Assembly (NCBI RefSeq): GCF_000024005.1
Contig: NC_013132.1
Coordinates: forward strand, 8,116,001 to 8,180,000
DNA length: 64,000 bases
Direction: 5' to 3'
Source of the DNA: Chitinophaga pinensis DSM 2588
Lineage (GTDB): Bacteria > Bacteroidota > Bacteroidia > Chitinophagales > Chitinophagaceae
Both the position numbers and the translations under genes were made by a program. Within the stretch, counting starts at the first letter, position 1. Each line of letters begins with the position of its first letter. Of the stretch, positions 1-14,734 are shown piece by piece. The notes beneath the pieces were generated by a model. It was not told the DNA's origin. It did not search any database and saw only the letters and a program-made list of their open reading frames with translations.

Positions 1-630
1 GCCTCCATGGTTTTCCACGATCACGCTGATATTGTGTGTATTGGCAAAGCCGGATAATTTAGCCAATGACTCAATCACCGCTTTGGATACATCATCTGGT
101 TTGCCCTCTCCCGCTGCATTTACGCGGATAGCATGACAACCCAGATATTCAGCTGCTTCTACCCATTTGTAGTGATTTTCCACAGCTTTCGTTCTTTTCT
201 TCACGTCCAGATCTCCCATCTCACCTTCTCCGTCAATCATAATGAGTACACTACGCACACCATTGTCGCTGCAACGCTTCTTGAGATCTGCCAGGTATGC
301 CTTATCGGTAGCTTTATCTTTAAAGAACTGATTCACATACTCAACTGCCTCGATACCAAAGTCATTCTTTGCTTTTGCGGGGAAGTCAAGGTGATTCAGC
401 TTACCGGAAAATAAAGCGTCATGAAAGGACCATTCTGCCAGAGAGATCTTAAAGAACAGCTCCTTCGCCGCAGCAGCGCCAGAGGTGCCTGCTACGTTGG
501 TACTGTCTTTGCTTTCCTTTGTGGAAGCGCCGTTGTTGCAGGCGGCCAGGACAGAAGGCAAGAGGCCTGCTCCCATTGTATACAATGCCATTTGCCTGAG
601 AAATTCCCTACGGTGTTTAGGATTGTTCAT
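1..630 (-). CDS. Exported sugar phosphate isomerase/epimerase-like TIM-barrel protein (partial)
   Basis: The gene is cut by the left window edge; 210 codons remain from an ATG at 630. The N-terminus MNNPKHRREFLRQM is a twin-arginine-like signal (RREFLR) followed by a hydrophobic stretch ending VLAAC, so the product could be a Tat-exported lipoprotein. After a Ser/Thr/Ala linker the body (LFFKISLAEWSFHDALF, GIEAVEYVNQFF, VENHYKWVEAAEYLGC, HAIRVNA, ISVIVENHGG) reads as the xylose-isomerase-like TIM-barrel family (AP endonuclease family 2 fold). Substrate is unknown. It is the most distal recognisable gene of the exported catabolic cassette, separated from the SBF transporter by about 210 bases, so it may have its own promoter. 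Confidence 0.8.
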   Translation of the reverse strand, partial: MNNPKHRREFLRQMALYTMGAGLLPSVLAACNNGASTKESKDSTNVAGTSGAAAAKELFFKISLAEWSFHDALFSGKLNHLDFPAKAKNDFGIEAVEYVNQFFKDKATDKAYLADLKKRCSDNGVRSVLIMIDGEGEMGDLDVKKRTKAVENHYKWVEAAEYLGCHAIRVNAAGEGKPDDVSKAVIESLAKLSGFANTHNISVIVENHGG

Positions 631-841
631 ATACGTGGTTTTGTATAACAAAATACAATTTATGGGTCAAAGTGAGTAACCTAATAAAAAAAACCGTAAA
701 AAATTACCTTAAAAGAATAGTTTTTTCACATTTTGTGATTATCTTGATAGCCACTTAACTTGTAATTCCCGTTTGTCTTTATGTAATATTCCACTCAAAT
801 AATGTGCGACGCATTGTTTTCAGCACATTATACGTGATAAA

Positions 842-1906
842 CTAAAGCCGTTCCGTTTCCAGCGGGACGGCTTTGTCATTCAGTTCCACCTCCACCGGTG
901 GATGCCTGTGCCACCAGGATGCCAGCAGTGAGCCGGTTACATTCATCAACGGACCAAATACAGCAGGCGCCAGGCCGACAGTAGCAATCTTACCCATGTT
1001 TTTAGCAATGGCCGTTGCCAGTCCGCCGTTCTGCATACCTACCTCTATCGCTATTGTACGGCAATCCTGTTCATTCATCCTGATCAGGCGGCATAACCAG
1101 TATCCCAGCCCATACCCGGACAGGTTATGTATCAATGAAGATAGGATCAGCAATACCCCTACATCCAGCAGACTCTCCCGTCCTTTAGCCGTAATAATGA
1201 CAATTATAAAAGCGATCGCCGACATCGAGATCTTCGGCATGATGTTATCCAGCCATTTCAGTTTGCCGCTAAGGAAATGATTAAATACCAGTCCTCCCGC
1301 TACCGGAAGTATTACGATCTTGCAGATATCCCACATCATCGCTGTTACACTGATATCCACATAGCTGCCTGCCAGCCAGCGCATCAGGAAAGGCGTCACA
1401 AAAGGCGCCAGCATAGTGGAAACAGCTGTCAGGGTGACTGACAATGCAAGATTCGCTTTCGCCAGATAAGAGATCACATTAGAAGCCATCCCACAAGGCA
1501 CGGTACCTATCAACACTACACCTGCCGCTATCTCCGGCGGGAACTTAAACAGATGCGCCAGGAACCAGCCGACGAAAGGCATAATGGTGAAATGGCAAAC
1601 CACACCTGTAAATACGCCCATCGGCATTTTAATAACGCCATAAAAATCACGTACGCTCATGGCTGTTCCCATACCAAACATGATGATCTGTATCAGTGGC
1701 GTGATCAGCTTCGACAAGTCAAAACCACCCACAGTCAGAAAGTATTGAGGATAATACATAGCGGTTGTCACTGCCGCGAATATGGTCAGCGTATATACAA
1801 AACCGCGCGTCTGTTCACGTCTGGAGCAGATAATAGCCAGTACGATCCAGCACGCAATGATGAAAGGCCCGGCAAAGGGAGGTATTGTACTCATAAGTGG
1901 AAACAT
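842..1906 (-). CDS. Bile acid:sodium symporter family (BASS/SBF) transporter
   Basis: The 354-residue protein is highly hydrophobic, with about nine or ten membrane segments. Family-type motifs are visible: MFGMGTAMSVRDF, then GTVPCGMASNVISYLAKAN in the first unwound-helix repeat and EVGMQNGGLATAIA in the second. BASS proteins are sodium-coupled importers of organic anions, which include bile acids and, in other members, pyruvate and 2-oxo acids. It starts 25 bases downstream of the RraA-like gene, so co-transcription is likely. By context I infer import of an organic acid made by the exported enzymes upstream; the sequence itself does not give the substrate. Confidence 0.88.
   Translation of the reverse strand: MFPLMSTIPPFAGPFIIACWIVLAIICSRREQTRGFVYTLTIFAAVTTAMYYPQYFLTVGGFDLSKLITPLIQIIMFGMGTAMSVRDFYGVIKMPMGVFTGVVCHFTIMPFVGWFLAHLFKFPPEIAAGVVLIGTVPCGMASNVISYLAKANLALSVTLTAVSTMLAPFVTPFLMRWLAGSYVDISVTAMMWDICKIVILPVAGGLVFNHFLSGKLKWLDNIMPKISMSAIAFIIVIITAKGRESLLDVGVLLILSSLIHNLSGYGLGYWLCRLIRMNEQDCRTIAIEVGMQNGGLATAIAKNMGKIATVGLAPAVFGPLMNVTGSLLASWWHRHPPVEVELNDKAVPLETERL
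844..871 (-). terminator. Hairpin overlapping the 3' end of the SBF transporter gene
   Basis: A 12-bp stem (AAAGCCGTTCCG / CGGGACGGCTTT, one wobble, 7-base loop) includes the stop codon and the last codons of the transporter. The downstream T-run on the minus strand is weak, so this is a possible rather than certain intrinsic terminator. Confidence 0.4.
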
Positions 1907-1931
1907 TAATCAATCATAGTTATTAATCAGA

Positions 1932-2846
1932 CTACCAGGTCCGCTTCTCTAACATTTTGTCGAGTGCCTGACGAGTCATAGGTTGTTGTCCCTGTTGTTT
2001 GTGCTGCCAGTCCAGGAAGGCTTGTCTGATCGCATCCGGCCAGTTATTGTCAAGCTCACCGGGCGTATACTTACCTGCCTTCAGCATCTCAAAACTGAAC
2101 TTATCTTTTACCTGGATAAAAGCAGCGATCCCTATCACCTTTTCTGCAAGATGCGCCGGTACGAATACCACCCCTTCACTGGAGGTTAAGACAAGATCAC
2201 CAGGTAATACCACCGCACGACCGATACGCACCGGCACATTCAAACCCGATAACATTACATTCTTCAGAAAAGAAGGATCCCAGTCTCTTACCAATGCATT
2301 GAATCCTTCAATTTCTTTCAGTCCTTCCAGGTCTCTTGCAGCAGCATCGAATACCACGCCGTTACCAGATCGGGCATAGATAGCATTCCCCAGTGTAGAA
2401 CCTATCAAAGTACCGTCCGCAATCTTCCCGAAACCATCTGCCACATACACATCACCTTTGCTCAATTGCTGTATAGGCCAGGAATTACTATTACCTTTAA
2501 AACCTTTCTGCTGTCCTCTCTCCTTCACATGTGCTTCAACATCCGGACGTGCAGGAATAAACATCGCTGTTACTGCACGTCCTATGATAGGTTTGTTATC
2601 ATAAATCATTTTCCATCCTCCATCAAACTGACAGTGATAGCCCTCTCCTTCCAGTATGGTCCAGACATCGTCCAGACTCACCGTACGCGCCTGTTCTATG
2701 ATGGCGTCGGGTATTTTGGGTCTACCATCAGGAAAACGTTCTCCTTTCCAGTCAGCAGTCAGGAATACCAGTTCCTCCTTTGGAATTGTTTGTGCACGGA
2801 GAAAAAATGGGACCAGCAATAATGGGAAGAAGTGGAACAATTTCAT
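1932..2846 (-). CDS. Exported RraA-family protein (HMG aldolase / oxaloacetate decarboxylase-like)
   Basis: This 304-residue protein has a Sec signal (MKLFHFFPLLLVPFFLRAQ). The RraA fold follows: GRAVTAMFIPARPDVE, DVYVADGFGKIADGTLIG, GNAIYARSGNGVVFDAAARD (Arg171-Asp172 match the family substrate/metal-binding Arg and Asp), and later VVLPGDLVLTSSEGVVFVPA. Catalytic RraA relatives cleave 4-hydroxy-4-methyl-2-oxoglutarate-type aldols or decarboxylate oxaloacetate; RraA itself is an RNase E regulator. The presence of Arg-Asp and the metabolic neighbours favour an enzyme. A signal peptide is unusual for this normally cytoplasmic family. An AT-rich heptamer array lies directly upstream of the start codon. 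Confidence 0.85.
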   Translation of the reverse strand: MKLFHFFPLLLVPFFLRAQTIPKEELVFLTADWKGERFPDGRPKIPDAIIEQARTVSLDDVWTILEGEGYHCQFDGGWKMIYDNKPIIGRAVTAMFIPARPDVEAHVKERGQQKGFKGNSNSWPIQQLSKGDVYVADGFGKIADGTLIGSTLGNAIYARSGNGVVFDAAARDLEGLKEIEGFNALVRDWDPSFLKNVMLSGLNVPVRIGRAVVLPGDLVLTSSEGVVFVPAHLAEKVIGIAAFIQVKDKFSFEMLKAGKYTPGELDNNWPDAIRQAFLDWQHKQQGQQPMTRQALDKMLEKRTW

Positions 2847-2847
2847 T

Positions 2848-2881
2848 CAATTAAGAATTAAAAATTAAGAATTAAGAATTG
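2848..2881. repeat. Heptamer array (AATTAAG type), single arm
   Basis: Four to five imperfect copies of AATTAAG/GAATTAA end one base before the RraA-like start codon. On the mRNA the array therefore forms the immediate 5' leader. No inverted partner arm is visible in the 70-base gap. Confidence 0.75.
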
Positions 2882-2915
2882 GTTGCAAGGGAATGACGAT
2901 TCCATTCAGGAGAGG

Positions 2916-4154
2916 TTACTTATGCTGTGCTGCTAATCCGTTGAGATCATATACTATCTTACCGGCACGAACGGTTAATTCACACAGTAATTTACTGTCG
3001 CCTTCCATACGGGTGTTCGCATCTGTAAAACCGAATTTACCATTTTCCACGCGGAGCAAGGCAATATCAGCAATACTGTGCTCAGACAAACTACCCAGTT
3101 CCTCGTGGCGGATTACTTTCGCCGCTTCTGATGTAGTAGCCTTTACCAGTTCAGGTACAGACATCCCCATATTCAGGAATTTAGACATCACGTTCAGCAG
3201 GTCTTTCATATCACCGTTCATACTACCAGTGTGGATATCTGTGCTGATCGTGTTAGGAAAGAATCCTGCTTTTAATGCAGGTACAGCCTGTGAATAACTG
3301 AAACTGGTGCCGCCATGTCCGACGTCGAAAATGATGCCCTTTTTACGGGCTTCAAATACGAACGGACGAAGTTTACCATTATCATCCACAATTGACATAC
3401 GCCCCTTTACTTTTGCATAAGCATGGGTAAAAATATCACCGGGACGCAGGTGCTGCATAAAGAGTTCCTCCAGTGACAAAGGCGGATTACTTCCTCCGAA
3501 ATCGATCATTACAGGCGTTCCTGTCACTTTACCCGCTTCAACCGCACGATCTACCGGCGCCCACTCTGCCCCCTCATAATGGGCTACTTTTACGCCGACT
3601 ACCCACTGTTTATAACGACGTATCGTCAGCGCTGTCATCTTCCCATCCATATCGGAGAGATCCTGTTCATAGGGACCGCCCTGCATACCACCGCCTACGA
3701 TATTGATAAATGCCAGTACACGGGTTTTGGAATGCATGATCGTCTGATTCAGGAACTGCTCAAAATTCCGCCAGCCGGAACTGCCGGCATCTACTACCGT
3801 AGTAACGCCACAACGAAAGGTAAAACCATCCGGTGCGATCGCATCGTAACTGTTATTAAGATAGCGATTCGGTGTAGTACCGATAAAGTTGTGTGTGTGA
3901 ATATCTATCAGACCAGGCGTGACATATAATCCTTTTGCATCGACCACGTTCTTTGCAGTAGCCGCATCAATATTGGCAGCTACTTTTGCAATCGTATCAT
4001 TTAACAATGCAATATCCATCACTGCATCGATACCATTCTTCGGATCAAGAACATGCCCGCCTTTGATCAGCAATGTATATTGCTGCGCGTGAGCATTGAC
4101 AAATAAAAGGCTCCCTGATACCAGGAGTACCAGGTATTGGATAATGCGCTTCAT
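2916..4154 (-). CDS. Exported amidohydrolase/deacetylase family metallohydrolase
   Basis: The 412-residue protein has a Sec signal (MKRIIQYLVLLVSGSLLFVNAHA). It is a dihydroorotase-like metallo-hydrolase: an early beta-sandwich (GGHVLDPKNGIDAVMDIALLNDTI), His86-x-His88 in GLIDIHTHNF, a candidate carbamylated Lys189 (VVGVKVAHYEG), later metal histidines in IFTHAYAKVKG and FDVGHGGTSF, and the Asp of STDIHTG. The family, often called EF_0837/AHA_3915-like deacetylase, is commonly encoded beside a SelA-like ammonia-lyase, as here. The likely chemistry is hydrolysis of an N-acyl or cyclic amide bond; the substrate is unknown. A bulged hairpin lies between it and the upstream SelA-like gene. Confidence 0.88.
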   Translation of the reverse strand: MKRIIQYLVLLVSGSLLFVNAHAQQYTLLIKGGHVLDPKNGIDAVMDIALLNDTIAKVAANIDAATAKNVVDAKGLYVTPGLIDIHTHNFIGTTPNRYLNNSYDAIAPDGFTFRCGVTTVVDAGSSGWRNFEQFLNQTIMHSKTRVLAFINIVGGGMQGGPYEQDLSDMDGKMTALTIRRYKQWVVGVKVAHYEGAEWAPVDRAVEAGKVTGTPVMIDFGGSNPPLSLEELFMQHLRPGDIFTHAYAKVKGRMSIVDDNGKLRPFVFEARKKGIIFDVGHGGTSFSYSQAVPALKAGFFPNTISTDIHTGSMNGDMKDLLNVMSKFLNMGMSVPELVKATTSEAAKVIRHEELGSLSEHSIADIALLRVENGKFGFTDANTRMEGDSKLLCELTVRAGKIVYDLNGLAAQHK

Positions 4155-4229
4155 CTAATTACTTTTTAATGTTGAGACCTGAATGGAGAGTGGTTTCCGT
4201 ATATACTCACCGTGAAAGCATACAAATTA

Positions 4230-4278
4230 AAAACAGGGCAGAGCCGATAACGTTAGAGCTTATTGTTACCAGCCCTGC
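4230..4278 (-). terminator. Bulged hairpin between the SelA-like and deacetylase genes
   Basis: Read on the minus strand, CAGGGC pairs with GCCCTG and GGTAAC with GTTATC (one wobble), with an asymmetric internal loop. Five Ts follow. It could terminate or attenuate transcription within the catabolic cassette. Confidence 0.45.
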
Positions 4279-4311
4279 TTGCTCCTGTTAGGTGACTAAA
4301 CACACCATTTA

Positions 4312-5556
4312 TCAACCATGCGCTTCTGACAGTGCTTTTTCTGTCAGTACTTTTTTTAGTTGTGTTGCTACTATTTTTTCCTGTCCTGGCACCAGCATCC
4401 AGGTTGTCACATTGAAAGTATGCTGGTTCGCGCCATCGGCCACTTCTATGGAAGGATTGCCACTACGCAGTTTCTCCCTGACCTCTGCGGCCGTTGCCGG
4501 GATCTTCTTGGGATCCCAGGAAATATGTAATGTCGGGATATGATTCGCGACCGGCGGCACCACTACTTTGGTTTCCACACCAGATACAGACTTTACCGCA
4601 TCGCTGATCAACTTGATCTGCGCTTCCCACATTTTCCACTCCTTATCATGATCTGTACCGAGATAGGTTTCCAGCGCAACGAGCATACCAAGAATCTCTT
4701 CTTTATTCACCTTCAGTCCTCTTCCTATGGTATTACCACGCGGCGGCGCACTGAGTCTTCCTGCTTCAATGTATTTCTTTCTGCCCAAGAGCAGTCCCGC
4801 GCTCTGCGGACCACGTATGCCTTTACCACCGGAGAAACATACCAGATCATAACCCATAGCGGTATATTTAAACAGGTTTTCAACCGGAGGCACATCAGCC
4901 GCGCAATCTATCATCGTTGGAATACCATGAGCCTGAGCAATCCTGAGGTATTCTTCCACCTGTATCTTACCATCGAAGTTGTTCGCATTCAGGAAATACA
5001 TCAAAGCCGTCTTGTCACTGATCGTCTTTTCCAGTTCTTCTTTTGTTTCGATATAAATCACTTTCAGCCCTACGTTCTTCAAAGCATGTGCATAAGCGAT
5101 ATCATGCGCTTTCTGCATAATGACTTCCGTCTTCATACCGCTGCCTTCCAGGAAAGGCAGCTGTGCCACCTTCTTTTCATCCATACCGGTCAGTACACCT
5201 GCTGCCCCTAAGGTCATAGCTGCGGCTGCACCGGAAGTAACCGTTGCATATTCACAACGGAGCAATTTTGCGATACGCTGTCCAACCTTATCCTGCAATT
5301 CATCCAGCAGCACATATTCTTTGGAGGCGTAATTGATCGCGCTCATTACTTCGTCCCGCATCAGGGAACCCGTCATGAAGGTATATGTACCGGCCGCATT
5401 GATAAACGTACGGATACCCAGTTCTTTGAAATAGTCTTTTGCACCTGCTGCCGCTTGTGCTGATCCGTCAGTTAAGGGCAATAGTTTAGCGCTGCCTGCA
5501 AATGCACCGAATACGGGTATTGCAGACATATTTTTCAATAAGTCTCTGCGTTTCAT
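4312..5556 (-). CDS. Exported SelA-like / D-glucosaminate-type ammonia-lyase (PLP enzyme)
   Basis: This 414-residue fold-type I PLP enzyme belongs to the SelA-like group that includes D-glucosaminate-6-phosphate ammonia-lyase. Visible features are the TSGAAAAMTLGAAGVLTG cofactor loop, IPTMIDCAADVPP (Asp contacting the pyridine) and YDLVCFSGGKGIRGP with the PLP Lys245. The N-terminus MKRRDLLKNMSAIPVFGAFAG has a twin-arginine-like K-R-R-x-L-L-K motif and a hydrophobic core, which suits export of a folded PLP enzyme. Known relatives eliminate ammonia from amino-sugar acids through an enamine. It lies 34 bases after a RidA gene, and RidA proteins hydrolyse enamine/imine products. True selenocysteine synthesis is unlikely because no selB or tRNA-Sec is near and the protein carries an export signal. 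Confidence 0.85.
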   Translation of the reverse strand: MKRRDLLKNMSAIPVFGAFAGSAKLLPLTDGSAQAAAGAKDYFKELGIRTFINAAGTYTFMTGSLMRDEVMSAINYASKEYVLLDELQDKVGQRIAKLLRCEYATVTSGAAAAMTLGAAGVLTGMDEKKVAQLPFLEGSGMKTEVIMQKAHDIAYAHALKNVGLKVIYIETKEELEKTISDKTALMYFLNANNFDGKIQVEEYLRIAQAHGIPTMIDCAADVPPVENLFKYTAMGYDLVCFSGGKGIRGPQSAGLLLGRKKYIEAGRLSAPPRGNTIGRGLKVNKEEILGMLVALETYLGTDHDKEWKMWEAQIKLISDAVKSVSGVETKVVVPPVANHIPTLHISWDPKKIPATAAEVREKLRSGNPSIEVADGANQHTFNVTTWMLVPGQEKIVATQLKKVLTEKALSEAHG

Positions 5557-5590
5557 ATGTAAAAAGAAAAGAGTAAAAAAAAGCGTTTCT

Positions 5591-6052
5591 TTAGAGGGTA
5601 GCGATGCAATCCATCTCTACGAGAGAATCGCCCGGCACACCACCATAAACAGCTACTGTAGTGCGTACAGGAGGGTTACTGCCAAAACGCCCTTTGTATA
5701 CTTCGTTCATTGCTTTGTAGTCATTCAGGTCGTGCAGGAACACACTTACCTTCAGCACCTTATTCATAGAAGAACCTGCCTTTATCAGTACTTTCTCCAT
5801 TTCTTTCAGTACGTGGTCTGTATGCGCTTTGATATCGCCTTCAAAGTGAGCGCCGATACCTGCTACGAATACCATGTTGCCATGTACTCTGAAGCTGGAG
5901 AACAACGGTACATCCTGGTCATATACAATTTCGCCCTGTGGCGCACTGTCGGGTAATGCCGGAGCGGCGGCTTTTGCGATGGCGTTGATACCTGTTATAC
6001 CAGCCAGCGTGGCTGCCATCTTCTTTAATACGGATCTTCTCTGGTTTTGCAT
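5591..6052 (-). CDS. Exported RidA-family enamine/imine deaminase
   Basis: The first 35 of 153 residues form a Tat-like signal (QRRSVLKKM, then an Ala-rich core ending KAAAPALPD). The rest is a full RidA/YjgF/UK114 domain. Arg130 in PPVRTTVAVYGG and Glu146 in SLVEMDC match the active-site Arg and Glu of catalytic RidA. RidA hydrolyses 2-aminoacrylate-type enamines and imines released by PLP enzymes. The neighbouring PLP lyase, also exported, is the obvious source. It starts 10 bases after SusD, so it is part of the SusCD transcript. A signal peptide on RidA is unusual. Confidence 0.9.
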   Translation of the reverse strand: MQNQRRSVLKKMAATLAGITGINAIAKAAAPALPDSAPQGEIVYDQDVPLFSSFRVHGNMVFVAGIGAHFEGDIKAHTDHVLKEMEKVLIKAGSSMNKVLKVSVFLHDLNDYKAMNEVYKGRFGSNPPVRTTVAVYGGVPGDSLVEMDCIATL

Positions 6053-6062
6053 GATTTCGGTA

Positions 6063-7598
6063 TTAGTTATTTTTATCCCACCATACGCGGGTTGTCATAA
6101 GATTCGCTCCCTGACGGCTGATAGCTTCAGCCAGGCTTTCACTGTTCACACTTTCTTCAGAAGGTGGATACAGCAGGCGACGTGGAATAGTACCACCCGT
6201 TGTATTACCAGCTACATTCACCGGTGTCAGTGCTGGATAACCGGTACGACGCCAGTTGGCATGTATCTCCTGTTCGTCCAGGAATAACGCTACCCATTTC
6301 TCCTGACCAATCATTGCTTTCATCGCTTCTGCGCTACCTGTCAGCGGATGTGCCGCCTGATAAGCGGTAATCTTTTCCGATGCAATCACCCCTCCGCTAC
6401 CGAACAATGCCCAGTTACGCATAGAAGCGCCTATTGCATTGGAGAAAGCAGTAGCAGCGTTTCCTTCCCACCATCCCTGTACAGCAGCTTCTGCCAGCAG
6501 CAGATTTACTTCAGCAGCACTGATGATAATAAACGGTGCATTGTATTGTAAAATAGTAGCCGGATTAGGCTCGGAAAGGCTTGGAAAATCAGTTGGTTTA
6601 TTCAGCAAACCATTGGGCATTCCCTTCTGCAAAGCTGTACTGGTGTCTGCTTTACCATTGTTCCATACGATTGCTATTACATTCAGACGGGGATCTTTAT
6701 TCGTTTTCAGCACATCGATGAAGGTCTGCGCCAGCTTACCACCTTCGGTATTGCTGTTACCGTTCGCTACTGCATAGTCATTGGACAACATACTGGCAGC
6801 AGCCGGATTACGGTTGATCGCCTGTGAACCATCTACATATTTCATGGTAGCGATATCTGCATCTGTTGTAACCACACCGCCATCAATCGCTTTCTTCACC
6901 CAGGTTTGCGCTACAGCAGGAGATTTTCTGGAGATACGCATACCCAGACGTAACATCAGGGAATAAGCGAATTTCTTCCATCTTGTTACATCACCGGAAT
7001 AGATAAAATCACCCGCACCGAAAGTAGCTGTAGCAGGATTCAGTTTTGCGGCCGCTTCATCCAGCTCTTTCAGCATATCGTTATAGATAGCTTCCTGTGT
7101 ATCATATGCCGGTGTGAAATCATTCTCCGTATACCCTTTTACTGCCGCGGAATAAGGAATATCCCCATAGAGATCAGTAAGGCGGTGCATGATATACACA
7201 CGGAAGATACGTGCGATGGCATGTTTATTCACATCTGCAGGCGCATCAGGATTCAATGCATTGATCGTAGTACCGATTTCGTTTACCGCTGTAGTATATC
7301 CGGTTGTGAAATAATCATAAGGATAAGTACCCTGCTGGAAATAATATTTATCACCGATACCTGGTACATCTTTATAAGTAGCGAAATGCTGCATAGAGCC
7401 ACCACAAGCCAGTACATCAGTAGCGAAGTAACTGTTACCAAACGCATCCAGTAAAGCCTTACTGAACATATATTCAGGCTGTACAGTAGTAGATGCATCC
7501 GGGTTGATGTTCATTTCTTCGAATCCTTTATCACAGGATTGAAAAGTCAGCATAGAAGCGACTGCTGTATATATGAGAAAGTTAAAGCGCATTTTCAT
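6063..7598 (-). CDS. SusD/RagB-family outer-membrane nutrient-binding lipoprotein
   Basis: The 511-residue protein has a lipoprotein signal ending FQSC. The mature start (DKGFEEMNINPDAST) and FRVYIMHRLTDLYGDIPYS are typical of the SusD-like_2 group, in which a TPR-helical body binds the ligand over a TonB-dependent pore. ISAAEVNLLLAEAA and LFLDEQEIHANWRRTGYP near the C-terminus are also family-typical. It lies 19 bases after the SusC gene. The ligand is not evident. No glycoside hydrolase follows, so an acidic or amidated small molecule is at least as likely as a glycan. Confidence 0.93.
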   Translation of the reverse strand: MKMRFNFLIYTAVASMLTFQSCDKGFEEMNINPDASTTVQPEYMFSKALLDAFGNSYFATDVLACGGSMQHFATYKDVPGIGDKYYFQQGTYPYDYFTTGYTTAVNEIGTTINALNPDAPADVNKHAIARIFRVYIMHRLTDLYGDIPYSAAVKGYTENDFTPAYDTQEAIYNDMLKELDEAAAKLNPATATFGAGDFIYSGDVTRWKKFAYSLMLRLGMRISRKSPAVAQTWVKKAIDGGVVTTDADIATMKYVDGSQAINRNPAAASMLSNDYAVANGNSNTEGGKLAQTFIDVLKTNKDPRLNVIAIVWNNGKADTSTALQKGMPNGLLNKPTDFPSLSEPNPATILQYNAPFIIISAAEVNLLLAEAAVQGWWEGNAATAFSNAIGASMRNWALFGSGGVIASEKITAYQAAHPLTGSAEAMKAMIGQEKWVALFLDEQEIHANWRRTGYPALTPVNVAGNTTGGTIPRRLLYPPSEESVNSESLAEAISRQGANLMTTRVWWDKNN

Positions 7599-7617
7599 CC
7601 GTAGTAGTTTTAAGAGA

Positions 7618-10600
7618 TTAGAATTTCACCATCAGGTTAGCACCAAAGCTTCTTGTACGAGGCATACCAAATGCTTCGAAACCTTGTGCATTGCCGTTTG
7701 TGTAGCTGGATTCCGGATCGAAGTTGTCGGTCTTCTTGTAAAGGATCAGCAGGTTACGTGCTACGAAAGACAAGGAAGCACTCTGTACGATTTTGAGTTT
7801 CGCTACCGGAATCTGGTAGCTGAATACCACCTGGCGTAATTTCACAAAGCTGCCGTCATACAGGAAATGATCCGTGTAGTTCTTCGTGTTATCGTAGTAA
7901 AGACGCAGATTGGCTACCGGAATCGTGTTATGATAGTCATTTCCTTTTTCATCCACACCATTCAGTTCAATACCATTTTCTCTGCCTACGAGTGTTTTCT
8001 TGTGCAGACCAAAACGGGTCGCATATACATCCGTACCGGAGAATACTTTGTTGCCAAACTTGCCGTCTACCAGGATGTCGAGGGACAGGCGTTTGTAGTT
8101 AAACGTGTTGCTCAGACCCATTGTCAGCGGCGGTACACCTCTGCCTAATGCTTTCAGTTCACTTTTCTGCTCATAGCCGGAGGTACTGTTGTAAACGGTC
8201 TGTCCTTTTTCATTCTGTACAGTAGTGTAACCCATGATGATACCATAAGGCTGTCCTACTGTGTTGTGTACAAATGCCCAGCTACCTACGCTTGTCGCCA
8301 TTTGCAGGGTATTCAGACCTGCAGCCAGCTGTTCTACTTTACTGACATTGTAGGCCATGTTGTAGCTCACATTCCAGGAAAAGTCTTTACGTTTGATTGG
8401 CGTACCTGTCAGGAGTAATTCAACGCCTTTGTTGGAGAGTTTACCTACGTTCAGTAACGCATTGTTATAACCGGAGGCGGTAGAGATCGCAGTGCTTACG
8501 ATATCGTCTGTCGTCTGTTTCTTGTAGTACGTCAGGTCAATGCCCAATCTGTTATTCAGGAACTGCGCTTCACCACCAACTTCATATGTAGTAGAGGTCA
8601 ATGGTTTCAGGGTAGAGTTGGTTACCAGGTTCACTGCATTAGACTGCGTTACCTGCTGTACCGGACGACCCAGGTGACCTCCCTGTAACATCGTATATGT
8701 CTGATTCAGGATATATGGATCCGGCGTTGCACCACCTACCTGTGCCCATGAAGCACGCAGTTTTGCAAAGCTGATTGCCTTTGGCATCTTCACCGCATCA
8801 GAGAGGATAAAGCTACCACCTACTGAAGGATATAGAATGCTGTTGCTCTGTGGACTCAGTGTGGAGAACCAGTCCTGACGCGCTGTAAAGTTCAGGAAGA
8901 AGATGGATTTGTAATCCAGGTCCAGGGAACCAAATACTGAGTTGGTCGCTACTTTACCTCTTGTTGGCGTAGTTGTAGAGGTGGTCAGGTTAGTAGAGCT
9001 GTAGAAGAACGGAATGATAAACTGTGTACCTGCAATAGCCGTCTGGTTGGTATTAAAACGACGGGCATTAGCACCTACCAAAGCATTCACGCCGATGTTA
9101 CCTGCGATCTTGGTGTTGTAACCGGCAGTTACCATAGAGTTAGTTTCAGCTACAGAGTTTCTCAGTTCACTGTATTCACCTGCTGCGCCGGTTGTGTACA
9201 CAGTACCGGTTGGGATGATACCGATGTAGTTGTAATCAAAAAAGTCACGGCTCACTGTTCCTTTTACGTAGAGATTTTTCAGCAGATCATATTTAACGCT
9301 GGCCTGACCGATGAAACGGTTTTTGGTATCGTTGTTTTTAAATCTGTTGACAACAAAATAAGGGTTGGAAGCGTAGGCTGTTTCATTCCACTGGATCTCA
9401 CGACCGGTTTCATCATAACCCGGATCCATCCAGCGTACGTCAACTGTGTTGGCTACCATATAAACGCCCCAGTTGGGGTTACCGGTGGCATCCCCGGAAC
9501 TGGGACGGTTGGTTGCATTCTCAACATTATATTGCGCTATAGCTTCTATGCTCAGTTTTTTACCCAGGAAAGCATTCAGGTTCAGGTTCGCAATCTTCTT
9601 GTCGAACTTTGAATTTGGAATGATAGCTTTACTGTTGGTATTTGAGAGGGAGAAGCGGAAATTTACTGCTTCGCTACCACCGTTGAAGGCTACTGTATTG
9701 GTAAAAGTAGATCCGGTACGGTAGAAGTTTTTGATATTATCTTTCTGTGGAGTATATGAATGCATTTTCCCATCGAAAGCTACATATTCTGTACCATCCA
9801 TTTTAGTACCCCATGAACGGCGGCCGTAGGTGATCGCCTCTGCCTGTGAAGTCGGCTTCAGACCTTTGTCACCCTGACCATATTCATACTGCCAGTCAGG
9901 CAATACAGCAGGCGATTCCAATGTCATGGTTGTATTGTAATCAACACCGATACCTTTACGTGCACGACCTTTTTTAGTGGTAATCACAATCACACCATTT
10001 GCAGCACGGGAGCCATACAGCGCCGCAGCAGATCCACCTTTCAGTACACTGATAGTTTCGATATCATCCGGGTTGATACCACCGATACCATCGCCTCTGT
10101 CTACGTTTTGTCCGCCACCACCTGTAGTCGGCGCACCACCCGGTGTCGTATTATCGATCGGCATACCATTCACTACATACAGTGGCTGGTTATTACTACC
10201 CAATGAGCTGTTACCACGGATGATGACACGGCTGGAACCACCAGGACCGCTCGCCAGACTGGTTGCATTCACACCAGGAATCTTTCCGCTCAATGCATTT
10301 GCAACGTTCACTTCACGTGCCTGTGTGAATTCACTACCTTTTACTTCAGATACTGCGTATACCAGGGCTTTCTTTTCCTTTCTGATACCCAATGCCGTCA
10401 CTACTACTTCAGATAATGATTCATTCGATTCTGCCAGACTGATAGCCAGTGGCGCATCAGCATCGGTTACATTTACTTCTTTCTTAGCAAAACCCATGGA
10501 GCTGATCACCAGTACAAAAGGCGGTGTAGCGCCTTTGAGGTTCAGTTCGAAGCTACCATCAGGACCGGCCATAGCTGCCACATTGGAATTACCTTTGAGT

Positions 10601-11061
10601 ACAATGCTTGCACCAGGTACAGGCGAACCATCAGGACCGGTTACTTTACCTTTCAGTTTATCAGCCATCAGACTGTTCACGTTGAGGATAGTGGATGCTG
10701 AAGGTGTATATATAGAATATTGTGTTTTATTGACACGCATATAAGCAAGCGCAAAGTCAGACAAGAGCAGGCGTAATGCTGCTTCTGTCTCCATGCTTTC
10801 CGCTTTTTCCATTAGTTCTGCTGATATCAGTTTCCCATCCAGTAATCCCTCTTTATAAGCGATACGGACATTTTGAAATTTCTTTAGCTTTATTAAAGCT
10901 TCTTTAAGGGACACAGTGGCAGATACGTGTTTTACAGGGATCTTATCAGACTGCCTCATGGCATACATCGAGGGCGTCTGTGCGCTGACAGATATGGCAA
11001 TACCTGGCAGCAGGGCACAAGAGAGCAGCCCCAAAACGAGATTTTGGTTCAAAATGTTCAT
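7618..11061 (-). CDS. SusC/RagA-type TonB-dependent transporter with STN signalling domain
   Basis: This is a 1147-residue outer-membrane protein. In order it has a signal peptide ending SVSA, a secretin/TonB N-terminal (STN) domain at about 45-115 (VSLKEALIKLKKFQNVRIAYKEGLL), a carboxypeptidase-regulatory-like domain at about 137-215 (LKGKVTGPDGSPVPGASIVLKG), a TonB box region (LSEVVVTALGIRK), a plug with GPGGSSRVIIRG and IETISVLKGGSAAALYGSRA, then a beta-barrel ending RSFGANLMVKF. The STN domain and the adjacent FecR and sigma genes mark it as a transducer that signals ligand occupancy to the anti-sigma factor. Energy comes from TonB-ExbBD. Confidence 0.95.
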   Translation of the reverse strand: MNILNQNLVLGLLSCALLPGIAISVSAQTPSMYAMRQSDKIPVKHVSATVSLKEALIKLKKFQNVRIAYKEGLLDGKLISAELMEKAESMETEAALRLLLSDFALAYMRVNKTQYSIYTPSASTILNVNSLMADKLKGKVTGPDGSPVPGASIVLKGNSNVAAMAGPDGSFELNLKGATPPFVLVISSMGFAKKEVNVTDADAPLAISLAESNESLSEVVVTALGIRKEKKALVYAVSEVKGSEFTQAREVNVANALSGKIPGVNATSLASGPGGSSRVIIRGNSSLGSNNQPLYVVNGMPIDNTTPGGAPTTGGGGQNVDRGDGIGGINPDDIETISVLKGGSAAALYGSRAANGVIVITTKKGRARKGIGVDYNTTMTLESPAVLPDWQYEYGQGDKGLKPTSQAEAITYGRRSWGTKMDGTEYVAFDGKMHSYTPQKDNIKNFYRTGSTFTNTVAFNGGSEAVNFRFSLSNTNSKAIIPNSKFDKKIANLNLNAFLGKKLSIEAIAQYNVENATNRPSSGDATGNPNWGVYMVANTVDVRWMDPGYDETGREIQWNETAYASNPYFVVNRFKNNDTKNRFIGQASVKYDLLKNLYVKGTVSRDFFDYNYIGIIPTGTVYTTGAAGEYSELRNSVAETNSMVTAGYNTKIAGNIGVNALVGANARRFNTNQTAIAGTQFIIPFFYSSTNLTTSTTTPTRGKVATNSVFGSLDLDYKSIFFLNFTARQDWFSTLSPQSNSILYPSVGGSFILSDAVKMPKAISFAKLRASWAQVGGATPDPYILNQTYTMLQGGHLGRPVQQVTQSNAVNLVTNSTLKPLTSTTYEVGGEAQFLNNRLGIDLTYYKKQTTDDIVSTAISTASGYNNALLNVGKLSNKGVELLLTGTPIKRKDFSWNVSYNMAYNVSKVEQLAAGLNTLQMATSVGSWAFVHNTVGQPYGIIMGYTTVQNEKGQTVYNSTSGYEQKSELKALGRGVPPLTMGLSNTFNYKRLSLDILVDGKFGNKVFSGTDVYATRFGLHKKTLVGRENGIELNGVDEKGNDYHNTIPVANLRLYYDNTKNYTDHFLYDGSFVKLRQVVFSYQIPVAKLKIVQSASLSFVARNLLILYKKTDNFDPESSYTNGNAQGFEAFGMPRTRSFGANLMVKF

Positions 11062-11117
11062 AGTTTTTTTTTACGTGTCCTAGTATTCCCGCGTTAAGCG
11101 TGTGTTTTTCACACCGT

Positions 11118-12176
11118 TTACTTTCCTGAAGCGATGACTAATTCCTTCTCTGAAGGCTGTTCAATTCTGACGTTGAGCGTAGTGGTAATTACAGTCAATA
11201 GTTCTTCTACATTAGCTACGTTAATATCTCCCTCTATCTTTAGCTTTTTGATGGATTGTTCACTGACCTTTACAGTATAACCGTAATTATCCTGTAATGT
11301 CTCTATTATTTCTCCTAAAGTGGCATCGGTAAACGTCAGTGGTACCTGTATCCAACGTCTGATCGATTCTGGTTTGTTTATTTTTTTGGTTAGCAATAAA
11401 TGATTGTCTGCATACTCGATATAATCTCCAGGCAACATGACCACTGCTTTGGGCGCAGCTGGTCCTTCTTTGAACCCTACCTGTATTTTACCTGTTACCA
11501 GTCCTACTTTTGTTTTTCCGTGGCGGCTTCTTACATTAAATGAAGTACCCAGTACTTCGATGGTCAGTCCATTGCTGTGTACCAGGAAACGTTGACCGGG
11601 TCTTACATTGGTGGTATCCCTGTTCAGGTGTTTGACATCGAAGAAAGCCTCTCCTTCTATCCATACTTCTCTGGGAGCGATCGTATCCCATTTTTCCTGG
11701 AAGGAGATAGAAGAGGTTGCGTTCAATGTCACTACTGAATGATCGGGCAGGGTGATCGTTCTTTTCTCGCCGTATCCTGTAGCGATCATCTCTATGTGTG
11801 GCCTGTTCAGCTTACTATAGATCAGGTATCCGCCGGCAGTAGCTACCAATGCGATAGCGGCTGCTCGTACCCAGACATTCATTCTGCGGAAGATACCTGG
11901 ACGACGGGATTCCTCTGCTGCAATAGTGGCAGTGATCCTGTCCAGCAAATGCGCTTTATTGTCCTTGTTTTCCCAGATTTCCTGCGAACGGTAAGTACGG
12001 ATCACACTGACTGCAAAATTGAAATTCTCAGCAGCTGAAGGGTACTGTACAGGGAATTCGCTCCAGAACTGTGCTACAAGAACGTCCTGCTCTTTGCCTG
12101 ACACCCATTTAATGAAGGCGTCATCATCCAGGAAATTCTCCAGTGTATACGTCGTATATTTTTCATTGTTCATCAC
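11118..12176 (-). CDS. FecR-family anti-sigma factor / signal transducer
   Basis: The 352-residue protein has a cytoplasmic N-terminal region, one membrane helix at about 107-123 (AAAIALVATAGGYLIY), and a periplasmic FecR domain (GEKRTITLPDHSVVTLNATSS, VWIEGEAFFDVKHL, LTIEVLGTSFNVRS). A DUF4974 domain follows at the C-terminus (PLTFTDATLGEIIETLQDNYGYTV). It should hold the neighbouring sigma factor inactive until the STN domain of the SusC partner signals. It starts 42 bases after the sigma gene and precedes susC by 56 bases, the standard order for this regulatory set. Confidence 0.93.
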   Translation of the reverse strand: MMNNEKYTTYTLENFLDDDAFIKWVSGKEQDVLVAQFWSEFPVQYPSAAENFNFAVSVIRTYRSQEIWENKDNKAHLLDRITATIAAEESRRPGIFRRMNVWVRAAAIALVATAGGYLIYSKLNRPHIEMIATGYGEKRTITLPDHSVVTLNATSSISFQEKWDTIAPREVWIEGEAFFDVKHLNRDTTNVRPGQRFLVHSNGLTIEVLGTSFNVRSRHGKTKVGLVTGKIQVGFKEGPAAPKAVVMLPGDYIEYADNHLLLTKKINKPESIRRWIQVPLTFTDATLGEIIETLQDNYGYTVKVSEQSIKKLKIEGDINVANVEELLTVITTTLNVRIEQPSEKELVIASGK

Positions 12177-12218
12177 GATATCCCCTATTTACTACTATTA
12201 GACATGACATGGCTGAAA

Positions 12219-12839
12219 TTATCCCTCCGTTACCGGAATTTTTTTAGAAAAATTTCTAAAGAGGAATATCATTATGCTGAGGAAGGTCAGGAAGCATTTA
12301 TCTGACACTTTATGAAGGTTGTCGAGGGCCTTATATAATAATTTATAAGTGGAGCTCATATTGATGTCCATAATGACGGATATTTCCTCATAGGACATTC
12401 CTTCATAAAAACGGAGAAAGATGATTTCCTGCTGACGGGCAGGCAGTGTATTAACAAGTGCGATGACCTGATTTCTGAGTTCCTGTTCTTCCTGGCGGAA
12501 AGAGGCATCAGGTATAAAGTTGACAGCAAAGGCTCCCTGTCCGGATGCATTGTCCAGTTCTACAAATTTAGACAGGGATTGTATTTTACGAAACAATGTA
12601 GAGCGTAATGCTTTATACAGGTAATTCTTCACGGAGGCTGGATTGCCCAGTCTTGCGCGGGTAGTCCATAGTCTTACAAAAAGATCATGTACTACATCCT
12701 GGATCAGATCCGCATCCTGCGTAAATTTGCGGCCGTAATTGTTCAACAATTCATAAAATTCACCGTAGAGCGCAGTAAAAGCGTCCCAATCCCCCTGTTT
12801 AAACGCATTCCACCATAACACGTGACTCTCCGATTGCAT
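12219..12839 (-). CDS. ECF-type RNA polymerase sigma-70 factor
   Basis: The 206-residue protein has region 2 at about 15-80 (FTALYGEFYELLNNYG, DLIQDVVHDLFVRLW) and region 4 at about 120-175 (LVNTLPARQQEIIFLRFYEGMSYEEISVIM, then a helix-turn-helix). It belongs to the ECF group found with FecR and SusCD in Bacteroidota. After region 4 there is a hydrophobic segment (FLTFLSIMIFLFRNF) and a basic end. This is common in the group, but its role is unclear. It should drive transcription of the downstream susCD and catabolic genes once FecR releases it. Confidence 0.93.
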   Translation of the reverse strand: MQSESHVLWWNAFKQGDWDAFTALYGEFYELLNNYGRKFTQDADLIQDVVHDLFVRLWTTRARLGNPASVKNYLYKALRSTLFRKIQSLSKFVELDNASGQGAFAVNFIPDASFRQEEQELRNQVIALVNTLPARQQEIIFLRFYEGMSYEEISVIMDINMSSTYKLLYKALDNLHKVSDKCFLTFLSIMIFLFRNFSKKIPVTEG

Positions 12840-12913
12840 TAGCAGTTAGTTTATCAAGACGATTCCTAATAATACAAAAAAAATACCGCCCGGTGATAAC
12901 ATTTTCGTTCGTG

Positions 12914-13990
12914 TCAGATTTTTACGATTATATTTCTTTTATACATGATCCATACTGGTATGAACATCAGGATGACCAGGGTGATCGCCGCTGCAAGGGA
13001 TGCATTGAACGGAGATAAGAAAGCGCCATATGCGCGGAACATACCGCCGGACATACCTTTAAATATCATAGGAATGGCGCCGGATAAAACATAGGCGGTG
13101 ATCGCATTACGGCCGAATGCTACGAAAGGAGGCGTGATACTTTTATACTGTTGCACATCGATGAGCCAGTAAGAAAGTGCAAGGCCCATAGCTGCCAGTC
13201 CGCCTGTATACAAAACAAAGGAACTTGTCCATAATGATTTATTGATCGGGAAAAAGCCATCCCATATCAGCCCTGCGATAACAGACAGAAAACCTGCTGC
13301 AAACAACCAGGACACCTTATCCGCATCCGCCACATCTTTTCTGCGTAACCAGTCGCCGGTCATAATACCCAGCAATCCTGTGGATATCGCAGGCAGTGTA
13401 CTAAGCAATCCTTCAGGGTCCCAGGTGCGGGCCTGTTTCCAGAGATGCTGCTCTCCCAGTACTGTTCTGTCTATCCAGGCAGCCAGATTGGTTTCCGCTT
13501 CCAGGTTGGCCGGACCATACCCGGGTACCGGGACCACTGTCATCAGCAGCCAGTAGATCACCAGGAACGAAATGCAGAGCCATATACGGGGCTTAGTGCC
13601 CGTTTTTAAGTATAGTAAGGAAATAACAAGGAAAACGATAGAAATGCGCTGTAATACGCCTAAAATCCTCAGATTATGGAAATCAAAAGAAGGGATCAGA
13701 CGAAAAGCCAGTCCGATAGCAAAAAGTATCGCCGCACGGCGGATGATATGAATGATCAGTGAGGTATGTCCGCTGACATCAGCCTTCCTGCTGCTCAGCG
13801 CAAAAGTAACCGATACACCGACCATAAAGAGGAAGAAAGGAAAAACCAGGTCTGTTGGTGTACAGCCATTCCATTTTGAATGTTCCAGTGGCGGATAGAC
13901 ATACGACCAGCTTCCCGGATTATTCACCAATATCATGGCAGCGACAGTTAATCCGCGGAAGAAGTCGAGCGAAAGGAGCCTTTGTTTCAT
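12914..13990 (-). CDS. HGSNAT-type membrane acyltransferase (heparan-alpha-glucosaminide N-acetyltransferase domain)
   Basis: This 358-residue polytopic protein begins LSLDFFRGLTVAAMILVNNPG, followed by the WNGCTPTDLVFPFFLFMVGVS block that marks the HGSNAT/YeiB-like acyltransferase family. About ten membrane segments follow. Members move acetyl groups from cytosolic acetyl-CoA to sugars across the membrane. The bacterial substrate is usually unknown. It sits 74 bases upstream of the sigma gene on the same strand, so it could feed transcription into the locus, but there is no clear functional link. Confidence 0.82.
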   Translation of the reverse strand: MKQRLLSLDFFRGLTVAAMILVNNPGSWSYVYPPLEHSKWNGCTPTDLVFPFFLFMVGVSVTFALSSRKADVSGHTSLIIHIIRRAAILFAIGLAFRLIPSFDFHNLRILGVLQRISIVFLVISLLYLKTGTKPRIWLCISFLVIYWLLMTVVPVPGYGPANLEAETNLAAWIDRTVLGEQHLWKQARTWDPEGLLSTLPAISTGLLGIMTGDWLRRKDVADADKVSWLFAAGFLSVIAGLIWDGFFPINKSLWTSSFVLYTGGLAAMGLALSYWLIDVQQYKSITPPFVAFGRNAITAYVLSGAIPMIFKGMSGGMFRAYGAFLSPFNASLAAAITLVILMFIPVWIMYKRNIIVKI

Positions 13991-14041
13991 TGAACGTAAG
14001 ATTTAGTGCTGGTACCTGTTAAGATAGCAGAATAAATTTTA

Positions 14042-14734
14042 TCACAAAAGCTCCTTCCCCTGATTTTCTCTGAATGCGATAAAAGCTTCTCTTCCGTAGT
14101 GGTCTGCCTTACGGGTTGTTTCTGGCAAACGGTATGTTACACTCATTTTTAGTACCATCGCGGTAGCAGTATCCAGGGATACTTTATGTCCGGTAGAAAC
14201 GAATACAGGACTGATGCCGTTCTGTGTTCTGAGGGCATTGCCAATATGTTCTCCATTGTCTTCTGCAAGTAAAGGACTGACAGCGCCTCTTTCAGCAGCC
14301 AGTTCTTCATACTTACCGAATAAGCGGGTTTTACCACATCCCAATGCAGGTACATCTAATAGTACCCCCATATGACAGGCAAGTCCGAAGCGACGGGGAT
14401 GCGCGATTCCCTGTCCGTCACAGATGACGAGATCTGGCCGGCGTTCCAGTTTCTTCCAGGCTTCCAGCAATACCGGCATTTCCCGGAAAGAAAACAGTCC
14501 CGGGATATATGGAAAGGTGACCTGCATACAATGCGTGGCTACTTCCACTACTTCAAGGGTATTGAAATCAAGTAAGACAAAGGCGCCTGCAATGAGGTCG
14601 CTTTCCTTGTCATATTCTACATCCACACCGGCAATGAGTTTGATGTGGGCAGGCAGTTCGTCCGTCCGGATCACCTTTGGACGCAACTCTTCCTGTAATT
14701 GTATCGCCTCCTGTTCTGTGAGCATCGTGTTCAT
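14042..14734 (-). CDS. nfi: Endonuclease V (deoxyinosine 3' endonuclease)
   Basis: The 230-residue protein matches endonuclease V, which nicks DNA one base 3' of deoxyinosine in repair of deaminated adenine. Visible motifs are AGVDVEYD (first metal Asp), VTFPYIPGLFSFREMPVLLEA (the PYIPGxLxFRE signature with the active-site Tyr and Glu), DLVICDGQGIAHPRRFGLACHMGV (second metal Asp and the GxGxAHPR loop) and later STGHKVSLDTA. The length is normal. It is divergent from the small lipoprotein gene, with a 117-base shared intergenic region. Confidence 0.95.
   Translation of the reverse strand: MNTMLTEQEAIQLQEELRPKVIRTDELPAHIKLIAGVDVEYDKESDLIAGAFVLLDFNTLEVVEVATHCMQVTFPYIPGLFSFREMPVLLEAWKKLERRPDLVICDGQGIAHPRRFGLACHMGVLLDVPALGCGKTRLFGKYEELAAERGAVSPLLAEDNGEHIGNALRTQNGISPVFVSTGHKVSLDTATAMVLKMSVTYRLPETTRKADHYGREAFIAFRENQGKELL

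Follow-up and report, generated by a model that had tools for sequence, protein, structure and literature searches.

Can an amino-sugar acid be deacetylated and deaminated before it crosses the inner membrane? To our knowledge, small molecules are usually assumed to be catabolized after import, and the chemistry of the periplasm consists mostly of oxidation and hydrolysis. The question is raised by a locus of the soil bacterium Chitinophaga pinensis DSM 2588, whose genome is a single contig of 9,127,347 bases (NC_013132.1) and from which a 64,000-nucleotide stretch (the window, positions 8,116,001 to 8,180,000) was analyzed. Nine open reading frames (ORFs) on the minus strand of the window form one run from 12839 down to 842, with intergenic gaps, in gene order from the sigma factor to the BASS carrier, of 42, 56, 19, 10, 34, 157, 69, and 25 bp. 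They encode a sigma factor, a FecR-type anti-sigma factor, SusC, SusD, RidA, a SelA-like pyridoxal phosphate (PLP) enzyme, a deacetylase, an RraA-like enzyme, and a BASS carrier; these families, which an earlier note on this DNA had named by eye along with the single strand and the mostly short gaps, agree with the Pfam and NCBIfam assignments. We propose, at a probability of roughly 0.55, that the run encodes a phosphate-free pathway of exported enzymes that breaks down an N-acetylated 2-amino-2-deoxy-aldonate, that is, N-acetyl-glucosaminate or a close isomer. The gene content, the leaders, and their conservation are firm, and the substrate, each of the reactions, the location in vivo, and the cargo of the transporters are what we infer from these sequences.

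The case for export comes from the N-termini. As read from the sequence, the RidA family enamine/imine deaminase (Ribonuc_L-PSP; 5591..6052, minus strand) and the SelA/DgaE-like fold-type I PLP enzyme (SelA/Aminotran_5; 4312..5556, minus strand) start with twin-arginine leaders of the Tat (twin-arginine translocation) type, MQNQRRSVLKK and MKRRDLLKN, respectively. The PRK09237-type amidohydrolase/deacetylase (2916..4154, minus strand) and the RraA-like protein of the class II pyruvate aldolase/decarboxylase family (1932..2846, minus strand) start with Sec-type leaders, MKRIIQYLVLLVSGSLLFVNAHAQQ and MKLFHFFPLLLVPFFLRAQ. A scan of genome contigs from 84,980 species yielded 475 stretches with a relative, and the locus counts given here refer to the best 80 of these 475 (individual loci carry L numbers). 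Across the related loci, the twin arginine is present in 80 of the 82 complete N-termini of the SelA-like enzyme and in all 72 of RidA; 69 of 70 deacetylases and all 53 RraA-like proteins have a hydrophobic core. A stricter Tat-like rule is satisfied by 80/82 SelA-like and 49/72 RidA proteins vs 47/697 other ORFs of the same loci. A stricter uncharged-core test is passed by 68/70 deacetylases and 51/53 RraA-like proteins, as well as by 449/697 other ORFs, 11/38 proteins of the FecR cluster, and 0/26 of the sigma cluster; because so many other ORFs also pass, the core test alone is weak and unspecific. The conservation across rows, together with the N-terminal extension of the deacetylase and the PLP enzyme relative to solved homologs in the alignments, appears to be better evidence of export than this test. 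Tat carries folded, cofactor-loaded proteins, so that Tat export of a PLP enzyme is sensible. In a tree of 38 PLP enzymes, the 30 proteins with the twin arginine lie on one side of a branch with support 86/57 (29 of them with 100/99), and the Salmonella D-glucosaminate-6-phosphate ammonia-lyase (DGL), 8t7j, and the rhizobial and haloarchaeal proteins lie outside it; several long branches leave the precise position of the Granulicella rows uncertain. The putative exported PLP enzymes thus group apart from the leaderless homologs. The earlier note had let its proposal hinge on signal peptides in all four enzymes, and two Tat-type and two Sec-type leaders, conserved through the family and judged by sequence rules counted over the related loci, are in line with it, from which we infer a periplasmic location in vivo.

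The same enzyme set recurs well outside the window genome. As counted by sequence clusters, RidA is present in 73 of the 80 loci, directly before the PLP enzyme in 72 (one more, in L086, was recovered later), the deacetylase in 72, RraA in 53, BASS in 45, and SusC and SusD in 26 each, 22 of these in the operon order. Twenty of the 80 loci end early at contig or stretch ends; of the other 60, whose flanks are full, 59 have the deacetylase, 55 RidA (56 with L086), 45 RraA, and 37 BASS, and all 60 have either RidA or a second Rid protein. The succession SusC-SusD-RidA-SelA-deacetylase-RraA forms one run in 22 of the 80 loci (L032-L049, L051-L053, and L091, with L034 counted despite an extra 82-codon ORF called in a gap), so that the conservation of the enzymes with SusCD, on which the earlier proposal also depended, holds; in most of the loci outside these 22, at least two of RidA, the deacetylase, and RraA accompany the PLP enzyme. 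Apart from one metagenome-assembled genome named Flavihumibacter and one [Flexibacter], the closest loci, L032-L049, are from Chitinophaga, and a single genome contributes both L036 and L037 as two copies. The cassette is patchy in Chitinophaga, because only 10 of 36 sampled genomes of the genus, the genome of the window included, have a close copy. At E 1e-3, the TIGR01437 model matches 198 of 296 Bacteroidota sample genomes and exceeds 130 bits in seven only, the window genome included; from the short matched stretches, we judge most of the other matches to be other PLP enzymes. Wider stretches were taken from five of the six other genomes above 130 bits (G191 was left out). In the phylum of G353 (the genome of the locus named Verrucomicrobia), 7 of 387 genomes are over E 1e-40, with matches that start at model position 33-39, leaving the leader part outside, except in G353 itself. 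A plasmid of Granulicella tundricola (Acidobacteriota) carries a barrel outer-membrane protein, RraA, a SelA-like protein (Tat), RidA (Tat), a second SelA-like protein (Tat), and the deacetylase (Sec), and the set continues with a 7-bladed lactonase that has a twin-arginine leader and with a gene whose annotation names a BBE-domain protein; Pfam detects only FAD_binding_4 within the first 370 residues of that protein, the annotated start of which has no leader. GH125 genes lie near the cassette in this plasmid and in Confluentibacter L095.

What the PLP enzyme acts on is suggested by its active site. TIGR01437 is its best NCBIfam model, below cut-off; the two membership scores are 203.8 and 163.5 bits, both below the respective cut-offs (600 for NF047797). 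In an alignment that combines the window protein with 83 cluster members (84 rows in all) and was compared with DGL, the PLP lysine (K245) is kept in every row. The phosphate cluster of DGL consists of R301, R332, and R346 (PMC9529869). None of the 84 rows has an arginine in any of these three columns; the R301 column holds Thr or Ser in 83 rows, the R332 column Val or Ala in 79 (and one Lys), and the R346 column Trp in 81. All three arginines are kept in 8t7j, and the leaderless homologs on plasmids vary: L145 and L148 keep R301, L147 keeps R301 and R332, and L143, L144, and L146 lack all three, as does the Granulicella protein L142. The loss of the arginines remains, as read from the alignment, evidence for an unphosphorylated substrate.

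The same comparison bears on the role of RidA. In the column of H163, the proton donor of DGL, a histidine is found in 0 of 84 rows, and in the H162 column in 7 of 84; the H162/H163 loop is gapped, so that the position of H163 is given by the sequence alignment alone. In DGL, the H163A mutant stays active and accumulates a 293 nm intermediate (PMC9529869), which suggests a possible use for the adjacent RidA in the cassette. As an explanation of RidA by compensation for the lost histidine only, this idea is weakened: the rhizobial homolog L147 keeps both histidines and still adjoins RidA, so that the loss is not the sole reason for its presence, and the ong pathway discussed below needs RidA with a fold-type III enzyme.

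The deacetylase scores 451.9 bits with NF006689, above the cut-off of 371, and keeps H86, H88, K189, H244, and D306. The HxH, Lys, His, and Asp are common to it and the PRK09237 deacetylases with solved structures (PDB 8je0, 8wzy, 2ogj, and 2ics), to which we take the COG3964 label to apply; unlike these, the cassette enzyme is apparently exported and carries Asp218. This aspartate is present in 74 of 74 aligned rows, Granulicella included, in a column that holds His in three of the four solved relatives, with the His of 8je0 two columns on. The histidine, part of the M(V)H(V/I)G motif, is presumably a metal ligand in the solved relatives, so that their ligand set is matched except for Asp218, the other ligands being kept. 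RidA scores 74.5 bits with PF01042 (cut-off 27.3), and R130 and E146, which we take to be the catalytic Arg and Glu of the Rid family, are conserved in at least 97% of 74 aligned rows. The RraA-like protein scores 54.9 bits with PF03737 (cut-off 24.5) and 96.9 bits with the specific NCBIfam member PRK08245, below its cut-off of 208; R171-D172, which aligns to 3noj and is conserved across rows, presumably plays the part of the Arg-Asp pair of the HMG/CHA aldolases (4-hydroxy-4-methyl-2-oxoglutarate and 4-carboxy-4-hydroxy-2-oxoadipate).

A sugar acid, rather than just any amino acid, is indicated by the partners of the cassette in relatives. A glucose/sorbosone-type dehydrogenase-cytochrome c (GSDH) is encoded in 37 of the 80 loci, an SMP-30/gluconolactonase in 8, the carbohydrate-binding CBM9_2 in 22, and TRAP transporter genes in 9; these names, as well as that of the second Rid protein, come from one Pfam-scanned representative of each cluster. 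Six further Bacteroidota stretches from five genomes (L163-L168, three of them checked with Pfam) all contain a gluconolactonase-like and a GSDH-type gene, with GSDH below cut-off in L166 and on the opposite strand in L165 and L167. Genes of the SusC or SusD cluster and of the GSDH cluster never share a run in the 80 loci; a SusD-like piece starts the runs of L056, L061, and L063, and a SusC-like piece ends that of L109. The notion that SusCD and GSDH are strict alternatives is rejected, given that L164 holds SusC, SusD, GSDH, and the lactonase in one run. Because the phosphate site is missing and dehydrogenase, lactonase, and carbohydrate-binding partners occur in relatives, the substrate, which the earlier note had described merely as an amine acid, can be narrowed to an unphosphorylated N-acyl aminoaldonate.

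The mechanism that we favor would begin with SusCD, which, switched on by the sigma/FecR relay, would carry the acid, free or as part of oligosaccharides, across the outer membrane into the periplasm. In relatives, the exported dehydrogenase-cytochrome c and the lactonase probably form the aldonate in place, from aldose via lactone. The deacetylase would then release acetate from the N-acetyl-aminoaldonate, the Tat-exported PLP enzyme would eliminate water and then ammonia to give a 2-keto-3-deoxy acid, and RidA would hydrolyze or tautomerize the enamine or imine coming from the PLP enzyme. The RraA-like enzyme may split the resulting 4-hydroxy-2-oxo acid into pyruvate and an aldehyde, and the BASS carrier would import the 2-oxo acid. 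This is the reaction order of the earlier note, which we keep as the best available. It is likely that the chemistry is of the class that deacetylates an unphosphorylated hydroxy-amino acid and eliminates ammonia from it, and probable that the substrate is an aminoaldonate; 2-acetamido-2-deoxy-gluconate (GlcNAc1A) itself, the cleavage by RraA, and the cargo of BASS are more conjectural. Among the 42 full loci other than L032-L049, 18 of the 19 that have BASS also have RraA, vs 9 of the 23 that lack BASS (Fisher p 2e-4, phylogeny uncontrolled). BASS is present in 1 of 8 TRAP loci vs 18 of 34 others (p 0.054), so that a replacement of BASS by TRAP is suggestive only; TRAP and RraA show no association in these loci (p 0.43).

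Several observations weigh against this reading. The Asp218 at the column of a metal-ligand histidine suggests a possible difference in the chemistry of the deacetylase. Of the 42 full loci other than L032-L049, 15 have no RraA, and the cleavage step is therefore not universal; no BASS gene is annotated in 27 kb of the Granulicella plasmid, where MFS transporters are. The missing phosphate arginines cannot serve as a mark of export, a use that we rejected given that none of the three is present in the leaderless L143, L144, and L146, and R301 is kept in L150, the second leader-bearing protein of Granulicella. No gene for a dehydrogenase, lactonase, glycosidase, or kinase is part of the window operon itself, and the search of the window genome with LPMO_10 (lytic polysaccharide monooxygenase) gave 0 matches, leaving the production of GlcNAc1A by an enzyme of this kind of its own unsupported; the aldonate would therefore come from elsewhere or from unlinked GSDH-like and SGL (lactonase) genes. 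Such genes are present elsewhere in the genome. A few genes away from a SusC-like gene lies a GSDH-like gene, with cytochrome c encoded separately after it, and a lactonase-like gene (L176 7051-7941, minus strand) shares 51-56% identity with the lactonases in the cassettes of relatives. In this lactonase-like gene, one search reported one TAG inside the matched stretch, and another an open frame of 296 codons. For the BBE oxidase, the genome gave one short match, within a distant frame of 41 codons.

Among the alternatives, the one that survives best, although we consider it unlikely, has N-acyl beta-hydroxy-D-amino acids as the substrates of these exported enzymes, which would, for instance, turn N-acetyl-3-hydroxyaspartate into an oxaloacetate-type acid that RraA would decarboxylate to pyruvate for BASS. 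The RraA relatives matched do include 4-carboxy-4-hydroxy-2-oxoadipate aldolase/oxaloacetate decarboxylases, and OngC, a functional analog of the PLP enzyme, is reported to deaminate D-serine and D-threonine as well (PMC9537276). There is also no sugar enzyme inside the window operon. However, amino acids would need neither the GSDH-cytochrome c, SMP-30/gluconolactonase, and CBM9 that relatives carry in the same runs nor the lactonase and FAD oxidase of Granulicella. Distinctly less probable is periplasmic detoxification or salvage, in which the PLP enzyme and RidA would dispose of unusual D-amino acids or reactive enamines that stem from the cell wall or a host and the carbon would be no important nutrient. 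Rid proteins are damage-control enzymes, and every full-flank locus encodes one, with a second, PF14588-type Rid protein in 33 of the 80 loci; the dedicated SusCD and sigma/FecR genes of some loci and the BASS or TRAP carriers of others fit nutrient use better, and the ong pathway is described as nutritional (PMC9537276). Least probable of all is that the leaders are unused as export signals and that the pathway is cytoplasmic, like ong and Dga: leaderless homologs of all four enzymes exist, several of them likewise without the phosphate arginines, and the uncharged core is common among other ORFs of these loci, but the near-invariant leaders of all four enzymes and the grouping of the leader-bearing PLP enzymes in the tree argue for export.

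A bolder form of the aminoaldonate pathway appears possible though doubtful: the whole amino-sugar route, from C1 oxidation via deacetylation and PLP-dependent loss of ammonia to C-C cleavage, would take place outside the cytoplasm with PLP and Rid enzymes exported by Tat and with pyruvate-like products imported instead of sugars, and the lyase would lack the leak-preventing proton donor, for which the co-exported RidA would substitute.

The upstream genes of the run resemble those of a trans-envelope transducer: an ECF sigma factor (12219..12839, minus strand; Sigma70_r4_2, with the Bacteroidetes type TIGR02985 below cut-off), a FecR-type anti-sigma factor (11118..12176, minus strand; Pfam/NCBIfam), a SusC TonB-dependent transporter (7618..11061, minus strand; TIGR04056), and a SusD-like_2 surface lipoprotein (6063..7598, minus strand; Pfam). 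The earlier note had put the pathway under the control of this transducer and called SusC STN-containing. The four genes are indeed adjacent in the window; as judged from gene content over the loci, they are one of several supply routes for the cassette and not its core. The Pfam STN domain is not detected in the window SusC even at E<=1, and it scores at the same place in four orthologs (L091, 7.7e-7, above cut-off; L052, 1.8e-4; L051, 0.012; L047, 0.074), so that the window copy likely carries it too. The BASS-family carrier (842..1906, minus strand) scores 131.1 bits with SBF (PF01758; cut-off 24.3) and 240.7 bits with its nearest NCBIfam model, the PanS equivalog, below the cut-off of 400.

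Other genes surround the cassette here or in relatives. A gene for a NagX/DUF5009-like membrane acyltransferase, below the NagX cut-off (12914..13990, minus strand), ends 74 bp upstream of the sigma factor gene on the same strand and is present in 14 of the 18 closest loci; it is a possible associate and a possible link to amino sugars. NagX-like genes lie near the PLP enzyme in L074 and L080 as well, and further off in L060. Downstream of BASS, an AP_endonuc_2 (sugar-isomerase-like) gene with a twin-arginine leader has its start at the left edge of the window, on the minus strand; it is whole in L032 (14905-15957), and its cluster is found in 15 of the 18 closest loci. The PF14588-type Rid protein (L111 11230-11808 and relatives) is encoded directly after the PLP enzyme in 32 of the 80 loci, shows a lipobox-like motif in 21 of 33, and is present in 28 of the 42 full loci outside L032-L049, all 28 with GSDH. 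In L163 (10735-12456), L142 (7701-9299), and L166 (7169-8848), a longer SelA-like protein (called at 532-573 aa) is encoded in addition to the main one, and a shorter SelA-like paralog, about 45% identical, lies beside the main one in L091, L095, and L070; these extra proteins are perhaps a second lyase for another isomer. Elsewhere in the window, a 412-aa ORF (30497-31735, plus strand) is transposase-like, as named by eye from its translation.

Between the genes for the PLP enzyme and the deacetylase lies a strong predicted RNA hairpin with a U-tract (4215..4296, minus strand), identified by folding and by alignment of relatives, in which it is conserved with compensatory substitutions; its minimum free energy is -35.7 (z -3.48). 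The alignment covers the same gap in 12 of the 18 closest loci, without L037 (which duplicates L036), L041 (which has a different hairpin), and L043 and L047-L049 (short or no gap as called). In it, 95.1% of the cells are paired and 6 of 19 pairs have changed on both sides, a number of two-sided changes reached by 6 of 500 shuffles; the number of further pair types is reached by 62 of 500. The U-tract is absent from some rows. A search of the window genome with the hairpin gave one match at E<=1 (150 of 3135 first-look candidates were scored), and there is no Rfam match in positions 1-14500 of the window. The hairpin is perhaps an internal terminator or a stability element.

How does the cassette compare with known systems? 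Tat export of folded PLP enzymes, as proposed here, has precedents in PvdN and PtaA of Pseudomonas pyoverdine maturation, which are engaged in biosynthetic siderophore tailoring and not in catabolism. The earlier note had not recognized the pathway as described. Yet, the chemistry has been published as the ong pathway of oxidative chitin use in Pseudoalteromonas prydzensis, which converts GlcNAc1A into 2-keto-3-deoxygluconate (KDG) via TonB receptors, a deacetylase, and a PLP deaminase and has been reported from Gammaproteobacteria and one betaproteobacterium (PMC9537276). Like the cassette, ong includes TonB-type uptake, deacetylase, PLP deaminase, and RidA in a cluster and, in the parts of the report considered here, no phosphorylation before deamination; its RidA (OngD) is essential in vivo for a reason left unexplained there. 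Unlike the cassette, OngB and OngC are predicted to be cytoplasmic, OngB belongs to the D-aminoacylase group and OngC is a fold-type III PLP enzyme, and ong employs a KDG kinase, an SSS carrier, a MurR/RpiR regulator, and a periplasmic GH20; the sections of the report considered here name neither RraA nor BASS (PMC9537276). With a SelA/DgaE-family lyase that carries a Tat leader and a PRK09237 deacetylase, the cassette falls outside ong; no kinase family is found among its operon genes, the LPMO expected in the genome of an ong bacterium gave no LPMO_10 match, and a single fold-type III D-serine-dehydratase-type gene lies elsewhere in the window genome. The cassette looks like an independent, exported solution that works like ong without being a member of it.

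DGL (PDB 7lc0; PMC9529869) is a homologous PLP enzyme with the same lysine and the same expected elimination to a 2-keto-3-deoxy acid, but its substrate is phosphorylated by the phosphotransferase system, H162/H163 and R301/R332/R346 are present, and there is no Tat leader in the aligned part. The N-acetylglucosamine (GlcNAc) route predicted for Natrarchaeobius (PMC12343721) likewise draws on chitinase clusters that encode a DGL homolog, a RutC-family protein, and a glucose dehydrogenase; it is an archaeal prediction in which deacetylation (CE4/CE14) comes first, followed by oxidation and then by an assumed kinase. Among the matches listed in the open-licence literature, subscription papers being outside the scope, there is no description of an exported cassette of this kind.

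Known comparable pathways carry out deacetylation and ammonia removal inside the cell, whereas the cassette apparently does so outside the cytoplasm. A second, unrelated lyase accompanied by RidA would make the requirement for OngD in ong testable. If the proposal is true, a conserved exported PLP pathway in two phyla moves deamination, and perhaps C-C cleavage, outside the inner membrane, and it could explain the use of oxidized chitin or other oxidized amino sugars by Bacteroidota.

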